Source of the DNA: Microbacteriaceae bacterium UBA4731 | Lineage (GTDB): Bacteria > Actinomycetota > Actinomycetes > Actinomycetales > Microbacteriaceae | Length of the DNA stretch: 15,519 nt | Assembly (NCBI GenBank): GCA_002404115.1 | Contig: DHJB01000074.1 | Location: 30,667 to 46,185 of the forward strand | Direction: 5' to 3' | Shown here: positions 3,240 through 15,431 of the stretch, piece by piece | Layout of the letters: each line of letters opens with the position of its first letter | How positions within the stretch are numbered: the stretch's first letter is position 1 | The notes under the pieces: generated by a model | Databases searched by the model: none | What the model was told of the DNA's origin: nothing | Seen by the model: only the letters and a program-made list of their open reading frames with translations | Made by a program: the position numbers and the translations under genes

Positions 3240-3245
3240 GTGACC

Positions 3246-4038
3246 ATGCCTGATCGGGCGGCCTTCGGGGCTGCGGTCGCGGAGCTGTCAACGGCGCATG
3301 AACAGCGGACGAGCCTGTGTCGTCCCTTCATGCGCGCACTGCCCATCTCCGGTGCCGCGATTTCGACGCTAGGCGGCCCATTTGGAACAGAGACGGTGTG
3401 CGCGAGCGACACCCGAGCTGCGCGGATCGATGAACTGCAGTTCGACCTGGGCGAAGGACCCTGTTGGGATGCCCTGAGGATGCGCCGCCCGGTGCTCACG
3501 AACGACGTCAAGGGATCCGCGCATCCGGCTTGGCCAGTCTTCGTGGAGGCGCTCGGTGACGTTAAAGTAGGCGCCCTGTACGCCTTCCCGCTGGCGATCG
3601 GTTCGCTGGACATCGGAGCGGTCGATCTGTACTCGGGGAAACCCGGGGGGTCTCACCGAGCCGCAGATCCTGGATGCGGTTGCTCTGTCGACCATCGCCG
3701 CGGTGCAGGTGCTGCGCCGAGCCCTGGCCTCCCAGACCGTGAAGCCCGACGTCGAGGGTGATGACGGGTATTCCCGGCGCGTGGTGCACCAGGCGACCGG
3801 GATGGTGCTGGCGCAGCTCCGACTGTCGGCCGTCGACGCGCTCCTGGTCATCCACGGCTACGCGTTTTCGCACGGCCTCACGGTGCGGGAGGCCGCGGCG
3901 GACATCGTGGCACGGCGATTGGATTTCTCCCCCCATTTGAACGAGTCGTACGATGGAAAACATGGTGACGCAGACACGGGAAGGTCAGCTGGTCGAGACC
4001 TTCGTTACTCTCGCCGACACGCTCGTTGTCGGCTTTGA
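3246..4038 (+). pseudogene. GAF-ANTAR regulator interrupted by a +1 frameshift
   Basis: The first frame (ATG 3246 to TGA 3759-3761) encodes a GAF sensor domain, with AAISTLGGPFGTETVCASD, FDLGEGPCWDAL and VGALYAFPLAIGSLDIGAVD. It loses homology after LYSGKPGG. The next frame continues at once with LTEPQILDAVALSTIAAVQV, then a full ANTAR domain (VVHQATGMVLAQLRLSAVDA, HGLTVREAAADIVARRLDF), ending at 4038. The switch falls in the G-run 3645-3650; removing one G restores a continuous reading frame of 263 codons. Known ANTAR domains bind paired hexaloop hairpins in RNA and prevent transcription termination. The start has no clear Shine-Dalgarno; TACATC sits six bases before the ATG. The last 86 bases overlap the next GAF-ANTAR gene. 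It may be a true mutation, a phase-variable tract, or a sequence error. Confidence 0.8.
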
Positions 4039-4675
4039 CATCGTTGACCTCTTACACACTCTTGTCGAGAAGTGCGCGCTTCTGTTCGAGGCCTCCGCAG
4101 CCGGCATTATCCTTTCGGCCGGCGACGGCGAACTCGAGGTGGTTGCCTCGACGAATGAACGCAGTCGTCTCGTTGAAATCCTGCAGCTTCGCTCCGGTAG
4201 CGGACCTTGCGTTGAATGCTTCACGAGCGGCAGCGTCGTTTCGGTCCCGGACATCGACGCCGTCGGACCCAAATGGCCGAGGTTCCGCGCCGGGGCCCTC
4301 GAGCAGGGCTTCGCGTCCATGCGGGCCGTCCCGCTGCGGTTGCGGGCGACGACAATTGGCTCCCTCAACTTGTTCTGGGATCGACTCGGCGGCCTGGGCG
4401 AGCAGGATGGCGTCACGGTGCAGGCGCTGGTCGACGTGGCCACCATCGGAATCCTTCAGGAGCGCGCCATCCGGGAGAGCGATGTGGCGAGGCAGCAGTT
4501 GCAGCACGCCCTCAGCAGCCGGGTGCTGATCGAACAGGCCAAGGGCGTGCTCGCTTTCACCCACGACGCCAACATGGACGAGGCATTCGTGCTGCTCCGC
4601 ACGTATGCCCGGAACGCTGGCGTGCCGCTCGCCGATGTGGCCGAGCGCATCGTGAATCGCACCCTCGAGCTCTAA
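3953..4675 (+). CDS. GAF-ANTAR transcription antitermination regulator
   Basis: A 240-residue cytoplasmic regulator. Residues about 15-165 form a GAF domain (VETFVTLADTLVVGFDIVDL, LFEASAAGIILSAGDGELEV, LRSGSGPCVECFTSG, MRAVPLRLRATTIGSLNLFW) that should sense a small molecule or redox signal. Residues about 180-238 form the ANTAR domain (ALSSRVLIEQAKGVLAFTHD, MDEAFVLLRTYARNAGVPLA, DVAERIVNRTL), including the conserved IEQAKGVL helix. Family members bind nascent RNA and stop terminator formation. It is the second of a tandem pair, and its start lies inside the end of the frameshifted first copy. ATG 3953 has only a weak GAACGAG upstream; ATG 3962 (MVTQTREG) is an equally possible start. The two copies share architecture but not close sequence, so they are old duplicates or separate acquisitions. 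Ligand and targets are unknown. Confidence 0.88.
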   Translation: MENMVTQTREGQLVETFVTLADTLVVGFDIVDLLHTLVEKCALLFEASAAGIILSAGDGELEVVASTNERSRLVEILQLRSGSGPCVECFTSGSVVSVPDIDAVGPKWPRFRAGALEQGFASMRAVPLRLRATTIGSLNLFWDRLGGLGEQDGVTVQALVDVATIGILQERAIRESDVARQQLQHALSSRVLIEQAKGVLAFTHDANMDEAFVLLRTYARNAGVPLADVAERIVNRTLEL

Positions 4676-4709: not shown

Positions 4710-4773
4710 TGTCTCGTCGCCCCGGACCCTGGCAGCACACGTTTCAGTCGTGAGCTATCGAGGGAAGAGACCC

Positions 4774-5112
4774 GTGAAGCGCATATTCCACCCCGGGGGT
4801 TCCGTCATCACGGGAAGCGACCTGGCGGATGCCGTGCTGCTGTACGCGGAAGCGCTCAGCAACCGAAGACAAGTTGACGTCGTGGACATCCCGGTCGTCG
4901 GGGATGACGGACTCCCAGGCCGCGCCCAGTTCCTGATCGGTGCGGCGAGCCAGCTGGTGAGTGTGACAGCCGAGCAGGGGTCCCGCGAACTCGTCGAGCA
5001 GGGTACGACGGACCTCCTGCACCTGAAGGCGCGTAACCGGGGCACCGAGATGCCGGCGGCCTGGTTCAGCGATGAGCTGGAATCGACGCAGTTCGACGAC
5101 TTCGACTACTGA
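4774..5112 (+). CDS. Small conserved-looking protein of unknown function
   Basis: A 112-residue protein that I do not assign to a named family. The GTG at 4774 is preceded by a strong GAGGGAAGAG Shine-Dalgarno at 4761-4770, so it is very likely translated. The protein begins VKRIFHPGGSVITGSDLADA and has a helix LADAVLLYAEALSNRR. An alternating hydrophobic stretch follows (VDVVDIPVVGDDGLPGRAQF), then LIGAASQLVSVTAEQGSREL, a pattern like a small alpha/beta fold. There are no membrane segments, signal peptide or cysteines. It ends in an acidic, aromatic tail (ELESTQFDDFDY). Its stop lies in the same seven bases as the stop of the convergent allophanate hydrolase remnant. Codon use is native. No function is offered. 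Confidence 0.75.
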   Translation: MKRIFHPGGSVITGSDLADAVLLYAEALSNRRQVDVVDIPVVGDDGLPGRAQFLIGAASQLVSVTAEQGSRELVEQGTTDLLHLKARNRGTEMPAAWFSDELESTQFDDFDY

Positions 5113-6593
5113 CGCCGGTAGGCGCGCCACCCGCCGAACTCGCTGACGTCCGGCGCTCCGTCGAAGGCGTGCGGTTCGCAGACGAAGCCGTGCACGGTCG
5201 ATCCGTCGGCGAGTTCCACCGTGCCGATTGCCAACGGCGACGCCACGAGGGATACGAATCGGCCGAACGCGCGTGCGTCGAGCCGGTACACCTCGACTTC
5301 GATCCGGACGCCGCCGGTGCTCACCCGGCGCAAGGCGGGCTTCGGCGGAACGGTGCCGGGAAGCGCGTGCAGGCGGTACACGGCCGCGGTGGCCGTGCGC
5401 ATCGCGAACGTGGCGCCGAGATCGGTGAGTTCGCCGTTGAGCGGCATACCCGAAAGGTGCGCTCCCACGACGGCGAGCAGGACATCGTCGACGCCACCTC
5501 CGCCTCCCGTTTCGGCCGGCAGGGAGGGGCGGTCGGCGCTCACCCGCGCGTACCCGGTAGCGCCGAGCGGCCCGCCAACCAGCCGTTCGATCGCGGCGGC
5601 GATGCCGGCGAGCGAGCCGTCCGATCCCGCCGGCGCGCTCACCGTGACGCCGAAAGGCAGCCCGTTCGACGCGATGGAGCAGGGCACCGCGATGGCCGCG
5701 AGATCGAGGATGTTCGTGAACGTCGTGAACTGACCGAGACGGCTGTTGAGGGCGATCGGATCGGCCAGCATCTCCTCGACCGTAAACGTGGTGGTGACGG
5801 TCGGCGTGAGCAGCGCATCGACGCTCCGCCAGAGCGGCGCGATCCCCGCAGCGATGCGGCGGGCCTCGTCGAAGTCCCTGAACACCTGCGTTCCCGGCGT
5901 CGACCTGCCGGCGGACAGGACCCGGCTGATCACCGGATGCACGGCGTCCGGGTTCTCGTCGAGGAACGCCTCGATCCCGGAGAGCCGTTCGGCGAGCCAG
6001 CCGCCGGCGTAGAGTTTGCGTCCGGCATCGTAGAACGGCGTGAACGACGTTTCGACGAGCTGCACGCCCGCCGCCAGGAGCGCGTCGAGGAACGATGACC
6101 ACGCCGATTCGGTCGCCCGGTTGCCGGCGAAGTCGATGTCGGCTGGGCGCGGAACCGCGAGCACGAGGGTGTGCAGGGGCCGGGGGACCGGGCGCGGCGA
6201 CGGCACGGGCAGGTCGCGCGACCAGGCATCGCCTTCATCCCGCCCGGCGAGCACGGAGAGGACCAGCGCCCCATCGGCCACCGTCAGCGAGAAGACGCTC
6301 GCGCAATCGAGTGACCGGCACGCCGGCAGGAGTCCGCTCGTGCTGACCAGGCCGAAGCTCGGCTTGGTCCCGACCGTGTTGGTGAGCGCGGCGGGGACGC
6401 GGCCGGAGCCGGCCGTGTCGGTTCCCAGGGAGAATGTCACGAGCCCGGCCGAAACAGCCACTCCGGATCCCGAACTGGACCCGCCGGAGATCCGGGTGTG
6501 ATCGAAGGGCGTCGTGGGGGCGCCGTACGGAGAGCGTGTTCCGTTCAGGCCGGTTGCGAACTGGTCGAGGTTGCCGGTCGCGCCGAGTGACGG
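5106..6593 (-). pseudogene. atzF: Allophanate hydrolase lacking its N-terminus and catalytic lysine
   Basis: Intact enzymes of this family hydrolyse allophanate to ammonia and CO2 in urea breakdown. The frame, open from the TGA at 6594-6596, holds most of the amidase-signature domain. It has NLDQFATGLNGTRSPYG, the GGSSSGSG cis-serine loop (about codon 39), and GTDTAGSGRVPAALTNTVGT with the nucleophile serine (about codon 63). The complete C-terminal domain typical of AtzF/DUR1 follows, with LAVVGAHLSGMPLNGELTDL, RIEVEVYRLDARAFGRF and TVELADGSTVHGFVCEPHAF. About 495 codons remain of some 570-600. Just before NLDQFATG, where the catalytic lysine of KDN(L/I)D should be, the sequence reads GATGN and a stop lies six codons earlier. 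No start codon precedes the cis-serine loop; GTG 6461 would remove it. I infer a 5' deletion. No urea carboxylase gene is nearby. Confidence 0.85.
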
Positions 6594-6618
6594 TCATGTG
6601 AACGGATGGACCGGCCGC

Positions 6619-6648
6619 GTGACGATTGCATTTCGGCGTGGATAGGGT
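6619..6648 (+). promoter_or_regulatory. Probable promoter of the alpha/beta hydrolase, near-leaderless
   Basis: GTGACG at 6619-6624 and TAGGGT at 6643-6648 are separated by 18 bases. The -10 ends seven bases before the ATG at 6656, and there is no Shine-Dalgarno between them. Inferred from sequence. Confidence 0.4.
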
Positions 6649-6655
6649 GTGGGCT

Positions 6656-7303
6656 ATGACTCCCCACCGACTTCTGCTGCTGCATGGCGTCGCCACGACA
6701 GGCGCGGTGTGGCAACCGGTCCTCGACGCGCTCGGTGCGCTCGATGGCTTCGATGTGTCCGCGCCCGACCGCCCGGCCTGCGGCGACCTCCGCGCGGAAC
6801 TCGACTGGCTCGCCCCGCTCGCCCGTGACGCGTTCGTGGTGGGCTTCAGCGGCGGCGCGACGCTGGGCCTCGCGCTCGCCGCGAGCGACGTGCGCCTGGC
6901 CGGGGCGCTGCTGCACGAGCCCGCCGTCGGCAGCCTCGTGCCTGGTCTCCTCGCACCCGTCGCCGCAGCGTACGCCCGCGACGGGTACGCGGGCTTCGGC
7001 TCGGCGCGGTCCGGGCCCGGCTGGCGCACCGACATGGCCCTGGACGATGGGGCATCCGTCGCGCGGGAGCTTCCGATGTTCCGGGCGTTCGAACCTGCCG
7101 GCGCTACCCCTGGCCAGGGACGCGTCGTGGTCAGCGTCGGCGCGCTCTCACCTCGGCCGCGCCAGGACGCCGCCCACGCCCTGCGGGACCGCCTGGGCTA
7201 CGAGACCATCGAACTCGCGGCGAGCAGTCACTTCGCGGTCCAGGACAACCCGCAGGACTTCGCTTCCCTGATCCGCGAGTTTCTGGGCGCCGACCGTTCC
7301 TAG
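6656..7303 (+). CDS. Small alpha/beta-fold hydrolase
   Basis: A 215-residue cytoplasmic protein. It opens with the first strand and oxyanion segment RLLLLHGVATTGAVW (His10-Gly11). The nucleophile elbow VVGFSGGATLGLALA has Ser65 in G-x-S-x-G form. The likely catalytic histidine is in ASSHFAVQDNPQDFASLIREF (His192), placed as usual before a final helix. The acid residue is not obvious; an Asp in SPRPRQDAAH is one candidate. Length is short for the superfamily (often 250-300), with a reduced cap region. There is no signal peptide. The ATG at 6656 is chosen because homology begins there and a -10 box lies just upstream; an ATG at 6626 would overlap that promoter. The stop shares CTAG with the convergent usp gene. 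Substrate unknown (esterase-like). Confidence 0.82.
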   Translation: MTPHRLLLLHGVATTGAVWQPVLDALGALDGFDVSAPDRPACGDLRAELDWLAPLARDAFVVGFSGGATLGLALAASDVRLAGALLHEPAVGSLVPGLLAPVAAAYARDGYAGFGSARSGPGWRTDMALDDGASVARELPMFRAFEPAGATPGQGRVVVSVGALSPRPRQDAAHALRDRLGYETIELAASSHFAVQDNPQDFASLIREFLGADRS

Positions 7304-8148
7304 TCGCCCGGCTCGCCGGCGCTTCGGGCGACGAGCACGGGCACGTTGATGTTCATCAGCACGTCGTGGGTCACAGAGCCGATCAGGGTCTGGGTCGCGC
7401 TTCGCCGGTGGGAGACACCCAGCACGAGGAGCGAGGCGTCGTAGCTGGCATCCAGCAGCGCCTCGGCGGGTGCGCGGTGCACCAGCCGCCGGTGCACGAC
7501 CACCCCCGGTGCGGCAGCGGAGGCCGCCGCGGCGGCATTGGCCAGCAACAGCTGTGCCGCCTCGGTGCTCGCGGGAAGGTCGGCCGACCGCGCCGTTCGC
7601 TGGGGCGACGGGGGCGCATGAACGAGCAAGAGCTCCTGCCCCAGGCTCAGGGCCTCCCTGGCGCCGCGCGCCACGGCCGGCTTCGACCCGTCGAAGCGAT
7701 CGACCCCGACCACGACGCCGCGCCGGGACGAGGTGGCGGAGTCCGGCACGATGGCCACGGACGATCGGGCGGCGGATACCATCTGCACGCTCCGTGACCC
7801 GAGGACCCGGCCGCGGAGGAACCCGGTTTTGTGGGTTCCGATGATGAGCAGGTCCTCGGGGGACGGAAGCCCGGCGAGCTCCCACGACGGGCTGCCGTGC
7901 AGGATCCTGGTGCTGATGTCGACACCATCGGCGATGGCGTGGGCGTTCCCGGCTTCCTCCGCGAGGAGTGCGACCGTCTGTCGCTGCGCTTCCTCTGCAT
8001 AGTCCTGGCCGACAAGTCCCCACTCGTCGTCGACGACGTGCACGAGCACGACCGCGGCGCCGCGTTCGGCTGCCCGCTGCATCCCCCAGCGCAGCGCAGC
8101 CCTGCCGGGGCCTGAGCCGTCGACTCCGATGAAATAGTCGCCGCTCAC
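7300..8148 (-). CDS. Universal stress protein, two UspA domains (second gene of pair)
   Basis: A 282-residue cytoplasmic protein of two tandem UspA domains. Domain 1 (about 1-136) starts YFIGVDGSGPGRAALRWGMQ and ends SSVAIVP; domain 2 (about 144-275) starts VVVGVDRFDGSKPAVARGAR and ends VPVLVAR. The ATP loop G-x2-G-x9-G-S/T is altered in both: GTHKTGFLRGRVLGS (Lys for the second Gly) and GVSHRRSATQTLIGS (His for the second Gly). Nucleotide binding may therefore be weak or changed. The GTG at 8148 starts two bases after the stop of the upstream usp gene, with no strong Shine-Dalgarno, so translation is probably coupled. In mycobacteria, tandem-domain Usp genes are members of the DosR hypoxia regulon. 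The DosR-like pair next door suggests the same here, an inference. Confidence 0.92.
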   Translation of the reverse strand: MSGDYFIGVDGSGPGRAALRWGMQRAAERGAAVVLVHVVDDEWGLVGQDYAEEAQRQTVALLAEEAGNAHAIADGVDISTRILHGSPSWELAGLPSPEDLLIIGTHKTGFLRGRVLGSRSVQMVSAARSSVAIVPDSATSSRRGVVVGVDRFDGSKPAVARGAREALSLGQELLLVHAPPSPQRTARSADLPASTEAAQLLLANAAAAASAAAPGVVVHRRLVHRAPAEALLDASYDASLLVLGVSHRRSATQTLIGSVTHDVLMNINVPVLVARSAGEPGD

Positions 8149-8150
8149 GG

Positions 8151-9014
8151 CTACACCGCGGTCTTCTTCTCGTCGGGCCGAGGCACCACAACGACCGGGC
8201 ACGGCATGTTGAGGAGCACGTCGTGGCTGACCGATCCGAGGATCAGCCCGGCCACGGCTCCTCGCCCGTGGGTGCCGACCACGAGCATCTCCGCCTCCTT
8301 CGAGGCGTCGACCAGCATCGGAGCGGCCGGGCCCTGCTCCACCCACTCGGAAATGTCCACGCCCGGATGCGCGGCGCGGAGGCGTGCGGTCGACGTCGCC
8401 AGGATCTCCTCGTGCGCCTCACGGAGCGCGTCGAACGGAATGGCGGAGCCGAAATCCACGCCGATCGTGGCGGGGACGGTCCAGGCGTGGATGACGTCGA
8501 GCGTGCGGCCGAGGCGGGTGGACTCGCGGGCGGCGAAGTCGAGCGCGGCCTCCGATGTGACGTCATCCTCCATCCCAACGACGACGTGCCCGTCGCCGTG
8601 CTCCCAATTCGCCGGGACAACCACGACGGGGCAGCGCGCGTGCGCGGCGAGCCGAAGCGGCAGCGTGCCGTACACCGCGCCGGCGAGAAAACCGGTTTTG
8701 TTCGTGCCGATGACCAGGAGGTCGGCGTCGGCGGATGCGCGAACGAGTTCGTCGACCGGCACGCCGCGGCGCACGACGCTGGTCTTCTTCAGGGTGGGAG
8801 CCGCCTGCTCCACCTTTCGGGTGGCTTCGGCGAGCGCGCGTTCGTAGATCGGCTGGAATTCGTCCTCGGGTCCGCCAACGGGCGACCAGCCGAGTTCGAC
8901 GACGCTCGTCAGCTCCAGGGTGAGTTGCACCGACCGGGCGCGCTGTAGCGCCCACTTCAGCGCCGCGGCGCTCGCTGGGCCACCGTCAATGGCGACAATC
9001 ACTTTTTCAAGCAT
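8151..9014 (-). CDS. Universal stress protein, two UspA domains (first gene of pair)
   Basis: A 287-residue cytoplasmic protein with two UspA domains. Domain 1 (about 1-135) begins MLEKVIVAIDGGPASAAALK and carries the loop GTNKTGFLAGAVYGT, where Lys106 replaces the second glycine. Domain 2 (about 143-278) begins VVVGMEDDVTSEAALDFAAR and has a fully canonical ATP loop, GTHGRGAVAGLILGS (Gly247, Gly250, Gly260-Ser261). Only the second domain therefore looks clearly able to bind ATP. The ATG at 9014 has a GGAGGG Shine-Dalgarno seven bases upstream. It is the first gene of a two-gene unit divergent from the DevS/DevR-like genes. The shared 150-bp gap holds a DosR-like site about 94 bases before this ATG. 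Known mycobacterial relatives such as Rv2623 bind ATP and affect growth arrest. Confidence 0.94.
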   Translation of the reverse strand: MLEKVIVAIDGGPASAAALKWALQRARSVQLTLELTSVVELGWSPVGGPEDEFQPIYERALAEATRKVEQAAPTLKKTSVVRRGVPVDELVRASADADLLVIGTNKTGFLAGAVYGTLPLRLAAHARCPVVVVPANWEHGDGHVVVGMEDDVTSEAALDFAARESTRLGRTLDVIHAWTVPATIGVDFGSAIPFDALREAHEEILATSTARLRAAHPGVDISEWVEQGPAAPMLVDASKEAEMLVVGTHGRGAVAGLILGSVSHDVLLNMPCPVVVVPRPDEKKTAV

Positions 9015-9071
9015 GCAGCGGCCCTCCGGTTCTTCCCGCGGTTCGTCCCGTTGAGCGGAGCGCTTTCTCCA

Positions 9072-9077
9072 CGTGTA
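9072..9077 (-). promoter_or_regulatory. Possible -10 box of the usp operon
   Basis: On the minus strand TACACG fits a weak -10 and would give a start near 9064. The DosR-like site would then be centred about 50 bases upstream, a usual place for an activator. The -35 (GGTCCG) is poor, as expected for an activator-dependent promoter. All inferred. Confidence 0.3.
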
Positions 9078-9095
9078 CAGGTTCCCAGCGCCGAC

Positions 9096-9121
9096 GGACC
9101 TCGGAAAGGGTCAAAGGTCCC
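9096..9121. promoter_or_regulatory. DosR/DevR-like operator between the usp and kinase genes
   Basis: GGGTCAAAGGTCCC at 9108-9121 matches the mycobacterial DosR palindrome core GGGACTWWAGTCCC at 11 of 14 positions, including both GGG/CCC ends. The reverse strand also matches at 11 of 14. An overlapping inverted repeat, GGACCT (9096-9101) and AGGTCC (9115-9120), has a 13-base spacer. The outer flanks do not match the 20-bp consensus. The site lies 44 bases before the kinase ATG and 94 before the usp ATG. Confidence 0.55.
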
Positions 9122-9128
9122 ATGCGAG

Positions 9129-9134
9129 TAGACT
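9129..9134 (+). promoter_or_regulatory. Possible -10 box of the sensor kinase gene
   Basis: TAGACT fits TAnnnT and gives a start near 9141, with a 24-base leader containing GAGAGG. The DosR-like site would then fall between -35 and -10, a position better suited to repression or to control of the opposite promoter. Confidence 0.35.
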
Positions 9135-9164
9135 CCCCGCCAAGCGACGATGGAGAGGCGGGCC

Positions 9165-10892
9165 ATGGCGGTGACCGATCGTGACTCTCGACTCTCCTTT
9201 CCCGACGGACCCAGGTCCGAGCTCGACCGGGCGCTGTCCGAGCTCATGGACAACGCCCAGAAGGTGCTGGCCACGCAGGGCCGGTTGCGAAGCCTCCTCC
9301 AGGCGAGCCAGGCCGTGGTCGAGGAACTCGATCTTCCGGCGGTGCTGCTCCGAATCGTCGAGGTTGCGGTGGGTCTGGTCGGGGCGCGCTACGGCGCCCT
9401 GGGGGTGATCGGCCCGAACGGCCACATCGAGCAGTTCATTCACGTGGGGGTGCCCGACGACGTCGCATCGCGGATCGGTCGCCTGCCGGAGGGCCACGGT
9501 CTCCTCGGCGCACTGATCGACGATCCGGCGCCGATCAGGCTGGACCACCTGCTGGACGACCCGCGTTCGGACGGCTTCCCCCCGCATCATCCGCCCATGG
9601 ACAGTTTTCTGGGCGTGCCGGTGCACGTGCGCGGCGAGGTGTTCGGCAACCTCTACCTCTCCGAGCAGTCGTCCGGCGCGTTCAGCGACGAGGACCGGGA
9701 ACTCCTCAGCGCGCTGGCTGCGACGGCCGGGATCGCCATCGACAACGCCCGCCTGTTCGACGAGACACGGCGTCGTCAGCTGTGGTCGGCGGCATCCGCC
9801 GAAATCAGCGCGGCGCTGCTGTCGGAACGAGCCGACGATTCGCTGGCCCTGCTGGCCGAGCGCGTCGCATCCCTCGCCGAAGCCGACCTCGTCTGCGTCG
9901 TCCTGCCCACGGTCGACGGGACCCTCATGGTCGACACGGCCCGCGGCACCTACGCCGACCAGGTGGACGGCCTCGTCTTCCGGGCCGCCGGAACGCTCTC
10001 CGGTCGCGCGTTCGACAGCGGCCAGCCGATTCTCGCGGTCGACGGCACCGGCAGCCAGGAGGAGGCCGATTCGCCCCTGGTCCTCGGGCCGTCGATGATC
10101 ATCCCTCTGCTCGCCTCCGGGCGGCCGCATGGCGTGCTGACGGTGTCGCGTGCCTCCGGGCGGCCGCGATTCACCACGCCGGATGTCGAAATGGCCGCGG
10201 ATTTCGCCGGCCAGGCCAGTGTCGCCCTCGAGCTGGCCCGCGGCCGGGCCGACCGGCAGCGACTGGTGCTGCTGTCGGATCGGAGCAGGATCGCCCGCGA
10301 CCTCCACGACCACGTGATCCAACGGGTCTTCGCCGCGGGGATCGGGTTGCAGGCGATCGGCCGCACGATCGACGACCCGGCCATTCGCGGGCGAATCACC
10401 GACGAGGTGCAGGCCCTCGACGCCGCCATCGGCGAGATCCGCACGGCGATCTTCGCGTTGACCGCGCAAGCTCGCCCCGGCAGCCCGTCGCTCCGGCATC
10501 GCATCATCGACGTGCTCAGCGAAGTCGGCCCGCTTTTCGACCGGACGCCGAGGCTCCTCTTCGCCGGAGCGATCGACCTGGTCACCCCGGAGGACATGGC
10601 CGACGACCTCGTGGCCGTGGTTCGGGAGGGCCTCAGCAATGTGGCCAGGCACGCCCGGGCGCAGGAGACCGTCGTGAGCCTGGCGATCGTCGACGGGATG
10701 GTTGTCGTGACCGTTGCCGACGACGGCATCGGCTTCACGGGTTCCGAGCGGACGAGCGGCATTGCCAACCTCGCGGCCCGCGCAAAACGGTGGCAGGGCG
10801 AGCTGTCGCTGGGTGACCGGGACACCGGCGGAACCCTGCTGCGGTGGACCGCGCGGGTGCCCCTTGAGCCGGACCTGGCGGATTCCGCATGA
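9165..10892 (+). CDS. dosS: DevS/DosS-like haem GAF sensor histidine kinase
   Basis: A 575-residue cytoplasmic kinase (M. tuberculosis DevS has 578). GAF-A (about 57-200) contains LVGARYGALGVIG, HVGVPDDVASRIGRLPEGHG, DDPRSDGFPPHHPPMDSFLG and VFGNLYLSEQ. In DevS the proximal haem ligand His149 lies in HPPM and the distal Tyr171 in LYL; here His142 and Tyr164 hold the same positions, 22 apart. GAF-B covers about 215-357. The dimerisation helix has SRIARDLHDHVIQRVFAAGI with phospho-acceptor His381 (HisKA_3 type). The ATPase domain shows the N box VVREGLSNVARHARA and the loop VADDGIGF. There are no membrane segments. ATG 9165 is preceded by GAGAGG; ATG 9150 would use that sequence as coding. The stop overlaps the regulator start as ATGA. 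By family knowledge it should sense O2, NO, CO or redox state. Confidence 0.93.
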   Translation: MAVTDRDSRLSFPDGPRSELDRALSELMDNAQKVLATQGRLRSLLQASQAVVEELDLPAVLLRIVEVAVGLVGARYGALGVIGPNGHIEQFIHVGVPDDVASRIGRLPEGHGLLGALIDDPAPIRLDHLLDDPRSDGFPPHHPPMDSFLGVPVHVRGEVFGNLYLSEQSSGAFSDEDRELLSALAATAGIAIDNARLFDETRRRQLWSAASAEISAALLSERADDSLALLAERVASLAEADLVCVVLPTVDGTLMVDTARGTYADQVDGLVFRAAGTLSGRAFDSGQPILAVDGTGSQEEADSPLVLGPSMIIPLLASGRPHGVLTVSRASGRPRFTTPDVEMAADFAGQASVALELARGRADRQRLVLLSDRSRIARDLHDHVIQRVFAAGIGLQAIGRTIDDPAIRGRITDEVQALDAAIGEIRTAIFALTAQARPGSPSLRHRIIDVLSEVGPLFDRTPRLLFAGAIDLVTPEDMADDLVAVVREGLSNVARHARAQETVVSLAIVDGMVVVTVADDGIGFTGSERTSGIANLAARAKRWQGELSLGDRDTGGTLLRWTARVPLEPDLADSA

Positions 10893-11518
10893 TCCGGGTG
10901 TTCCTGGTCGACGACCACGAGGTCGTCCGCCGGGGGATAGCGGAGATGATCAACCAGGAAGCCGACCAGGAGGTGGTCGGGGAGGCAGCCACGGCCAGGC
11001 AGGCGATCGCCCGCGTGGCCGCGACCCGTCCGGACGTTGCCGTCCTCGACGTTCGCCTGCCGGATGGGAGCGGCATCGACGTGTGCCGCGACATCCGGTC
11101 GGCCAGCCCCGGCGTGCGGTGCCTGATCCTGACCGCGTTCGACGATGACGAGGCAAGCTACGCGGCGGTCCTGGCCGGCGCGTCGGGCTACGTGTTGAAG
11201 GACATCCGTGGGGACAAGCTGATCGACGGGATCCGGCGGGTCGCGCGGGGCGAGTCGCTCGTCGCCCGCTCGGTGACGAGGAAGGTCGTCACCGAGTTGA
11301 GCGACGACCGGGCGGAGACGTCGGCGTCCAGGCTCACCACGCGCGAACGGCAGGTGCTCGAGCTCATCGCAGAAGGTCTGACAAACCGGCAGATCGGAGA
11401 GCGACTCGAGCTGGCGGAGAAGACGGTCAAGAACTACGTGTCAGGGCTGCTGGGCAAACTTGACATGGAGCGGCGCACGCAGGCGGCGGTCTTCGGCGCC
11501 GGGCTCCGCGGGCACTGA
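10889..11518 (+). CDS. dosR: DevR/DosR-like NarL-family response regulator
   Basis: A 209-residue transcription factor, partner of the preceding kinase and translationally coupled by an ATGA overlap. The receiver domain opens IRVFLVDDHEVVRRG and carries the phosphorylation site Asp54 in VAVLDVRLPDGSGI, Thr82 in LILTAFDDDEA and Lys104 in GASGYVLKDIRG. All three have the same numbers as in M. tuberculosis DevR. The C-terminal LuxR-type helix-turn-helix runs LTTRERQVLELIAEGLTNRQ, then EKTVKNYVSGLLGKLDMERR and TQAAVF. Lys178, Lys181 and Asn182 correspond to the DevR DNA-contact residues Lys179, Lys182 and Asn183. Identity across the recognition helix is near complete, so a DosR-like target sequence is expected; a matching site lies before the kinase gene. 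Known role: activates a dormancy regulon under low oxygen. Confidence 0.94.
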   Translation: MIRVFLVDDHEVVRRGIAEMINQEADQEVVGEAATARQAIARVAATRPDVAVLDVRLPDGSGIDVCRDIRSASPGVRCLILTAFDDDEASYAAVLAGASGYVLKDIRGDKLIDGIRRVARGESLVARSVTRKVVTELSDDRAETSASRLTTRERQVLELIAEGLTNRQIGERLELAEKTVKNYVSGLLGKLDMERRTQAAVFGAGLRGH

Positions 11519-15049: not shown

Positions 15050-15431
15050 GGAATGGGTCGGCAAGACGGTCGCGTCATCCTGTGTTCTTCGGAGCACCGG
15101 ATGCCGAGGAACGTCCGGGCTCCAGAGAGCAGGGCGGTGGGTAACACCCACCCGGGGCAACCCGCGAGACAGTGCCACAGAAAGTAAACCGCCACCGGCT
15201 CCGGCCGGGGGTAAGGGTGAAACGGTGGTGTAAGAGACCACCAGAGGCCAGGGTGACCTGGTCGGCTTGGTAAACCTCGTCCGGAGCAAGGTCGAACAGG
15301 AAACGCTAAGGCGGCTCGCCGAGTTTCCGGGTAGACCGCTAGAGGGCTGCGGCAACGTAGTCCCAAGATAGATGGCCGTCCATGGTGCTTCGGCACCGGG
15401 ACAGAACCCGGCGTAATAGCCGGCCCATTCC
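15050..15431 (+). ncRNA. rnpB: RNase P RNA, bacterial class A
   Basis: Catalytic RNA that trims the 5' leader of tRNA precursors together with the RnpA protein. The ends pair as P1: GGAATGGGTCGGC (15050-15062) with GCCGGCCCATTCC (15419-15431), with one G-U pair. Conserved blocks appear in order: GAGGAACGTCCGGGCTCC (15106-15123), ACAGTGCCACAGAAA (15169-15183), AGGGTGAAACGGTGG, GTAAGAGACCACCAG, CCGGAGCAAGG, GGGTAGACCGC, AGATAGATGGCCGTC (15366-15380) and ACAGAACCCGGC (15401-15412). The length of about 382 bases is normal. The exact ends are set from P1 pairing; the mature RNA may differ by a few bases. Confidence 0.96.

Follow-up and report, generated by a model that had tools for sequence, protein, structure and literature searches.

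A DevRS/OsdKR-type sensor and regulator pair facing two usp genes in a Microbacteriaceae genome, most probably the local component of a regulon for fermentation and survival at low oxygen

The devRS-usp locus and its proteins

The window analysed here, a stretch of 15,519 nucleotides from Microbacteriaceae bacterium UBA4731, encoded two universal stress proteins, Usp2 (7300-8148, minus strand; 282 aa, GTG start at 8148) and Usp1 (8151-9014, minus strand; 287 aa). Their genes are separated by two bases, probably form a single operon and are divergent from devS. Both proteins matched PF00582 in two stretches (E = 4.5e-36 for Usp2 and 2e-46 for Usp1), so the tandem-domain label of the initial annotation is correct, as is the divergent orientation on opposite strands. 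On the plus strand, devS (9165-10892; 575 aa) encoded a DevS/DosT-like sensor kinase, and devR (10889-11518; 209 aa) a DevR/DosR-like response regulator, the stop of the former and the start of the latter sharing ATGA at 10889-10892. This overlapping kinase and regulator pair had also been proposed initially, and the domains, the PDB matches and the shared positions all agree with it.

The kinase exceeded the Pfam cut-offs for GAF, in two stretches (GAF-A and GAF-B), HisKA_3 and HATPase_c. Its GAF-A domain matched five solved GAF-A domains in the PDB (E = 1.7e-47 to 1.4e-41), four of which carry the name DevS; the best match was 2vzw, which is presumably DosT. The equivalent of the proximal His149 of DosS was His142 in an HPPM motif, and that of the distal Tyr171 was Tyr164, so that HPPM-x18-Y is kept; the motif was also present on the plus strand in 53 of 78 related loci. 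At the positions that separate DosS from DosT, described with the roles of His149 and Tyr171 in PMC4082495, the kinase had the DosT letters Gly87, Gly90 and Asn169 (DosS numbering), and residues 89, 97, 108 and 118 matched neither protein.

The top PDB match of the regulator was DevR 3c3w (E = 8.8e-66, 207 residues). It is of the NarL type, with Asp54 and a DevR-like recognition helix, and retains D8, D9, D54, T82, K104 and the KTVKNYV helix. Among the NCBIfam matches listed, none reached its cut-off for kinase or regulator: the top ones, MadR/MadS (NF047785/NF047786), scored 175.1 against a cut-off of 300 and 100.7 against a cut-off of 500 bits, and NarXL and the remaining labels were likewise below theirs.

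A GAF-A that is no longer a heme gas switch would make DevS a sensor of redox state or of another ligand rather than of O2 or NO. This is an unlikely reading of the window kinase, which retains counterparts of His149 and Tyr171 together with the three DosT letters, although its residue 89 is Ile and not the His of DosS. It gains some ground from the relatives: in five genomes (G011, G013, G014, G030, G033) the DevS match does not begin before residue 195-203, which suggests loss of GAF-A, and in the two of them that were read out (L296, L297) the usp/devS operator is kept and usp and the DevS match lie too close together to leave space for a heme GAF.

Elsewhere in the window, a GAF-ANTAR-like gene was seemingly split over two frames (3240-4038; GAF part 3240-3761, later part 3703-4038), and an open GAF-ANTAR gene followed at 3953-4675. 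The latter and usp2 are separated by allophanate hydrolase-like and alpha/beta hydrolase genes (4744-7300), unlike in the Cryobacterium loci L001-L006, where the two adjoin each other. The allophanate hydrolase-like ORF (5106-6461) lacks roughly 136 positions at the start of the Amidase profile and is possibly truncated. The window also contained a tRNA-Val gene (2121-2196) and an RNase P RNA gene (15054-15431).

Conservation of the locus and a putative shared operator

The nearest named relatives of the locus belonged to Cryobacterium (L001-L006; DevS identity 72-73%). All six had the order usp2-usp1 divergent from devS-devR, with orthologues 62-64% identical to Usp2 and 66-72% identical to Usp1. 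Two divergent usp genes also faced devS-devR in L007 and L009, at lower similarity, and a single one did so in L008, L010, L012 and L016. In two Streptomyces loci, PflB and AdhE (L028) or PflB and Xfp (L060) were encoded about 10 kb or less from DevRS homologues.

Between usp1 and devS, the 14-mer GGGTCAAAGGTCCC (9108-9121, plus strand; GGGACCTTTGACCC on the minus strand) was the sole match to GGGNCNNNNGNCCC in the window and is a putative DevR operator, a palindromic GGGNC-N4-GNCCC site lying before the candidate target genes. Since 1.49 matches to GGGNCNNNNGNCCC are expected from shuffling the window, the motif is no evidence by itself. The operator is credible because its position and sequence are conserved before devS in relatives, and for the same reason a chance 14-mer, with usp controlled by other means, is very improbable even with the expected number of chance matches above one. 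Among the first 20 loci listed (L001-L020), 16 had the 14-mer pattern near devS, the span counted being -420 to +60 bp relative to the extrapolated start of devS (L013 at -322). One-mismatch variants were seen by eye in L008 and L009, and neither site nor variant was found before devS in L014 and L015. Over all 78 loci, 27 showed a site match, one of them (L075) not upstream.

The sequence GGGCCGAAGGTCCC occupied the operator position before devS in all six Cryobacterium loci, and variants of it were found there in other relatives. Across 10 lineages, picked for having the site, the site columns averaged 1.73 bits compared to 0.42 bits in the flanks, a mean inflated by the eight columns that the search pattern itself prescribes; columns 8 and 10, which it leaves free, were also invariant. 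The DosR-like palindrome noted initially in this gap was thus sustained as a conserved site. It is an imperfect palindrome, self-complementary at 8 of 14 positions, and the mycobacterial 20-mer had no match with up to three mismatches in the scan of the window.

The spacing of the operator suggests a promoter on each side. On the usp side, the putative -10 box GAACCT (9079-9084, minus strand) lies 23 nt from the operator and is a weak box, shared with L293; at this spacing L001-L006 had CATTCT or CAGTCT, L012 had GACGCT and L016 had GACACT, and the pattern.A...T did not fit in L008, L009, L017-L020 and L258. On the devS side, the putative -10 box TAGACT (9129-9134, plus strand) lies 7 nt past the operator, where L001-L006 had TACACT. 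Promoter details were sought in PMC4973870, and none were found there. Overall, a DevRS-type sensor and regulator pair with a shared putative usp operator is well supported by these comparisons.

Sites before fermentation genes in related genomes

In six Cryobacterium genomes, the pattern GGGNCNAAGGTCCC matched 4 to 6 times per genome and its reversed form 0 to 3 times, and the genes beside the GGGNCNAAGGTCCC matches included devS/usp (6/6), adhE (6/6) and pflB (4/6). Among 57 genomes of the genus, DevS was detected in 51 (E<=1e-80; many of these matches merely 35-44% identical), DevR in 51 (E<=1e-45), PflB in 41 and AdhE in 29.

The sites were most regular in a Cryobacterium-type clade of 12 genomes (G001-G006, G009, G034, G040, G043, G044, G046), in which one preceded pflB in 12/12 and adhE in 12/12, the latter count taking in three sites altered at one base close to the end, which reads GGCAC (G009, G034, G043), and one altered at its first base, beginning with AGG (G005). 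A site also preceded devS in all 11 readable cases, the contig of G044 ending there. Of the promoters of pflB and adhE, all 24 had a TA...T box starting 23 nt after the site, the one offset between 10 and 35 at which it occurred. This class II pattern (site, 23 nt, TA...T) had 61 matches in the 12 genomes compared to 20 for the reversed control, so some single matches are due to chance.

Judged by likeness of the matched sequences, a class II site also accompanied xfp in nine of the 12 genomes (four loci translated: L201, L202, L204, L212) and, in all 12, a gene for a class V aminotransferase (six loci translated: L198, L200, L207, L208, L211, L213). PflB, AdhE, PflA and NirD, the last from G043 only, reached an NCBIfam cut-off; the partial Xfp protein fitted Pfam XFP_N and no NCBIfam cut-off, and the class V aminotransferase was under every desulfurase cut-off. 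Other genes beside sites in part of the genomes were ArsR-SulP, CstA, a polysaccharide deacetylase, DUF393/OppA-like, TerC, FKBP and KduI-like genes; ArsR and CstA are backed by Pfam matches and the other names were given by eye, and none is claimed as a target. Among the site neighbours identified in relatives, where part of the matches was translated, there was no nitroreductase or ferredoxin gene.

Four genomes of the genus with pflB and adhE and without DevR or DevS at these thresholds (G007, G012, G020, G053) had no site before either gene, and neither pattern matched anywhere in them. In a second, more distant clade (DevR identity 54-57%), the site followed after 23 nt by TA...T preceded pflB in nine of the 12 genomes with an intact copy (G010, G015, G016, G019, G022, G038, G047, G049, G052); G024, G035 and G051 had a pflB site scoring at least 10 with another spacing. 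The scores come from a matrix built on 11 devS sites, that of the window included, with a background containing some true sites.

In a family sample of 249 genomes, DevR was detected in 88 (E<=1e-50, with at most 12 candidates scored per genome) and PflB in 23. DevR was present in 16 of the 23 genomes with pflB and in 72 of the 226 without (p = 9e-4), and a site scoring at least 10 lay upstream of pflB in 12 of 15 genomes with DevR compared to none of seven without (Fisher p = 7e-4), both p values being only indicative and overstating independence because the genomes are related. This second count omits the pflB of G018, which has an internal stop, and covers 300 bp in G002 and G023 and 400 bp in the rest. 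Seven of the 12 sites had the 23-nt spacing, and five had another (G086, G093, G164, G178, G220); in the DevR-bearing G117, G179 and G023 no upstream pflB site reached a score of 10. In six of the 16 genomes with both genes (G086, G117, G153, G164, G220, G270), pflB and devR lay on one contig within 11 kb, and in G117 pflB and pflA were downstream of usp, behind the operator.

DevR does not by itself imply a link to fermentation, because 12 close relatives whose DevR identity is 70-81% (G008, G011, G013, G014, G017, G023, G030, G032, G033, G041, G042, G050) had no site before pflB (0/12) or adhE (0/11 readable). Nor did the additional pflB copies in G032 and G014 have one, and the class II pattern matched nowhere in the 12 genomes. 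A devS-side operator or variant was present in all 10 of them that were read at this position (all but G011 and G014; G030 by coordinates).

A minimal local circuit, in which DevR governs only usp1-usp2 and itself, may also apply in the organism of the window, a possibility of clearly lesser weight that these 12 relatives seem to exemplify, since 10 of them keep the operator with no class II match in the genome. Their DevR proteins come close to that of the window too (up to 81%), and its placement next to the 12-genome clade had a support of 0.845 only, in a tree restricted to genomes with both proteins (leaving out G009, G017, G023, G024, G034, G043, G044 and G046). By identity of DevS (71-73%) and DevR (81-83%), however, the window is most similar to the clade that has fermentation-gene sites, and pflB sites recur in the second clade and in the family, which speaks against so narrow a role.

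A fermentation regulon is likely in the relatives of the module. As pflB, adhE and xfp genes in some of these genomes have the motif at the same 23-nt spacing, the window most likely contains the local part of a wider regulon: a DevRS/OsdKR-type gas-sensing module for low-oxygen fermentation and survival. The initial annotation had set a compact response against the large, scattered regulon of mycobacteria. The local packing of devRS and usp stands, but compactness of the response is doubtful given the sites of the clade, and the contrast itself is not supported, as the same motif precedes scattered pflB, adhE and xfp genes in relatives.

The presumption of an aerobic organism is likewise only partly sustained. 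Cryobacterium strain 1639 is described as aerobic in PMC12113805, but the genome of the record Cryobacterium sp. 1639 (L004, G004), paired with it by matching name, carries pflB, adhE and xfp. In that paper, the strings "ferment" and "hypoxi" are absent from the main text, and a figure legend includes fnr among the genes unique to strain 1639.

Proposed regulatory scheme and comparison with known systems

In the scheme proposed for the window, the GAF-A domain of DevS would bind heme, probably via His142 of the HPPM motif, and its kinase activity would be released when O2 falls or when NO or CO is present. Phosphate would pass from His381 of an RDLHD motif to Asp54 of DevR, and phosphorylated DevR bound at 9108-9121 would act as a class II activator of usp1-usp2, with 23 nt between the site and the -10 box. 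On the devS side, the operator may limit or tune devRS, or even repress it, rather than activate it, because the site lies just 7 nt before the devS -10 box. Further targets in the genome from which the window derives would be predicted from those of its relatives.

A broader reading, offered tentatively and with somewhat less than even confidence, is that heme-sensing DevRS is a main fermentation switch in Cryobacterium-type Microbacteriaceae, either replacing FNR-like control or acting alongside it. It would drive pflB, adhE, xfp and usp from promoters built alike (site, 23 nt, -10 box), clades would have acquired or lost sites, and the module of the window would be the regulon core. If true, it would show how a DevR regulon is assembled in a family where only some clades have the sites, would offer non-mycobacterial strains for studying the DevR switch and would bear on anaerobic genes in actinobacteria described as aerobic. 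DevR is known chiefly from work on mycobacterial dormancy, and among the titles listed in the literature search none concerned DevR in Microbacteriaceae.

From its domains and residues, the module is of the DevRS/DosRS-OsdKR kind. MadR/MadS are its closest NCBIfam names, but the scores are below the cut-offs, so the pair does not belong to them. With DosS/DosT-DosR of Mycobacterium tuberculosis it shares the GAF-A heme His and Tyr, a GAF-B, the kinase and a NarL-type regulator, and it differs in having one sensor, with DosT letters at 87, 90 and 169, and the kinase gene ahead of the regulator gene. In M. tuberculosis, Rv3134c, which encodes a Usp, adjoins the pair. The operon there is Rv3134c-devR-devS according to a reference title in PMC3029386, and that paper places promoter-proximal DevR sites over the -35 element.

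In Streptomyces coelicolor, OsdK-OsdR (SCO0203/SCO0204) is a DevRS-type pair like that of the window, with the OsdR consensus AGGGCCGATCGGCCCT and binding demonstrated before uspA close to osdRK (PMC5069765), so the local link to usp is not new. The words "formate" and "phosphoketolase" are absent from the main text of that paper. The sole literature find connecting DevR, DosR or OsdR to pyruvate formate-lyase or phosphoketolase was a co-expressed OsdR cluster of S. lividans (PMC6302529), in which a putative pyruvate formate-lyase is accompanied by a fragment of an activator, a putative pseudogene; the pyruvate formate-lyase link is therefore not wholly new either. Compared to OsdKR, the window has its usp genes and devS diverging on either side of a single operator, and its relatives have sites before pflB, adhE and xfp, mostly at a fixed spacing of 23 nt.
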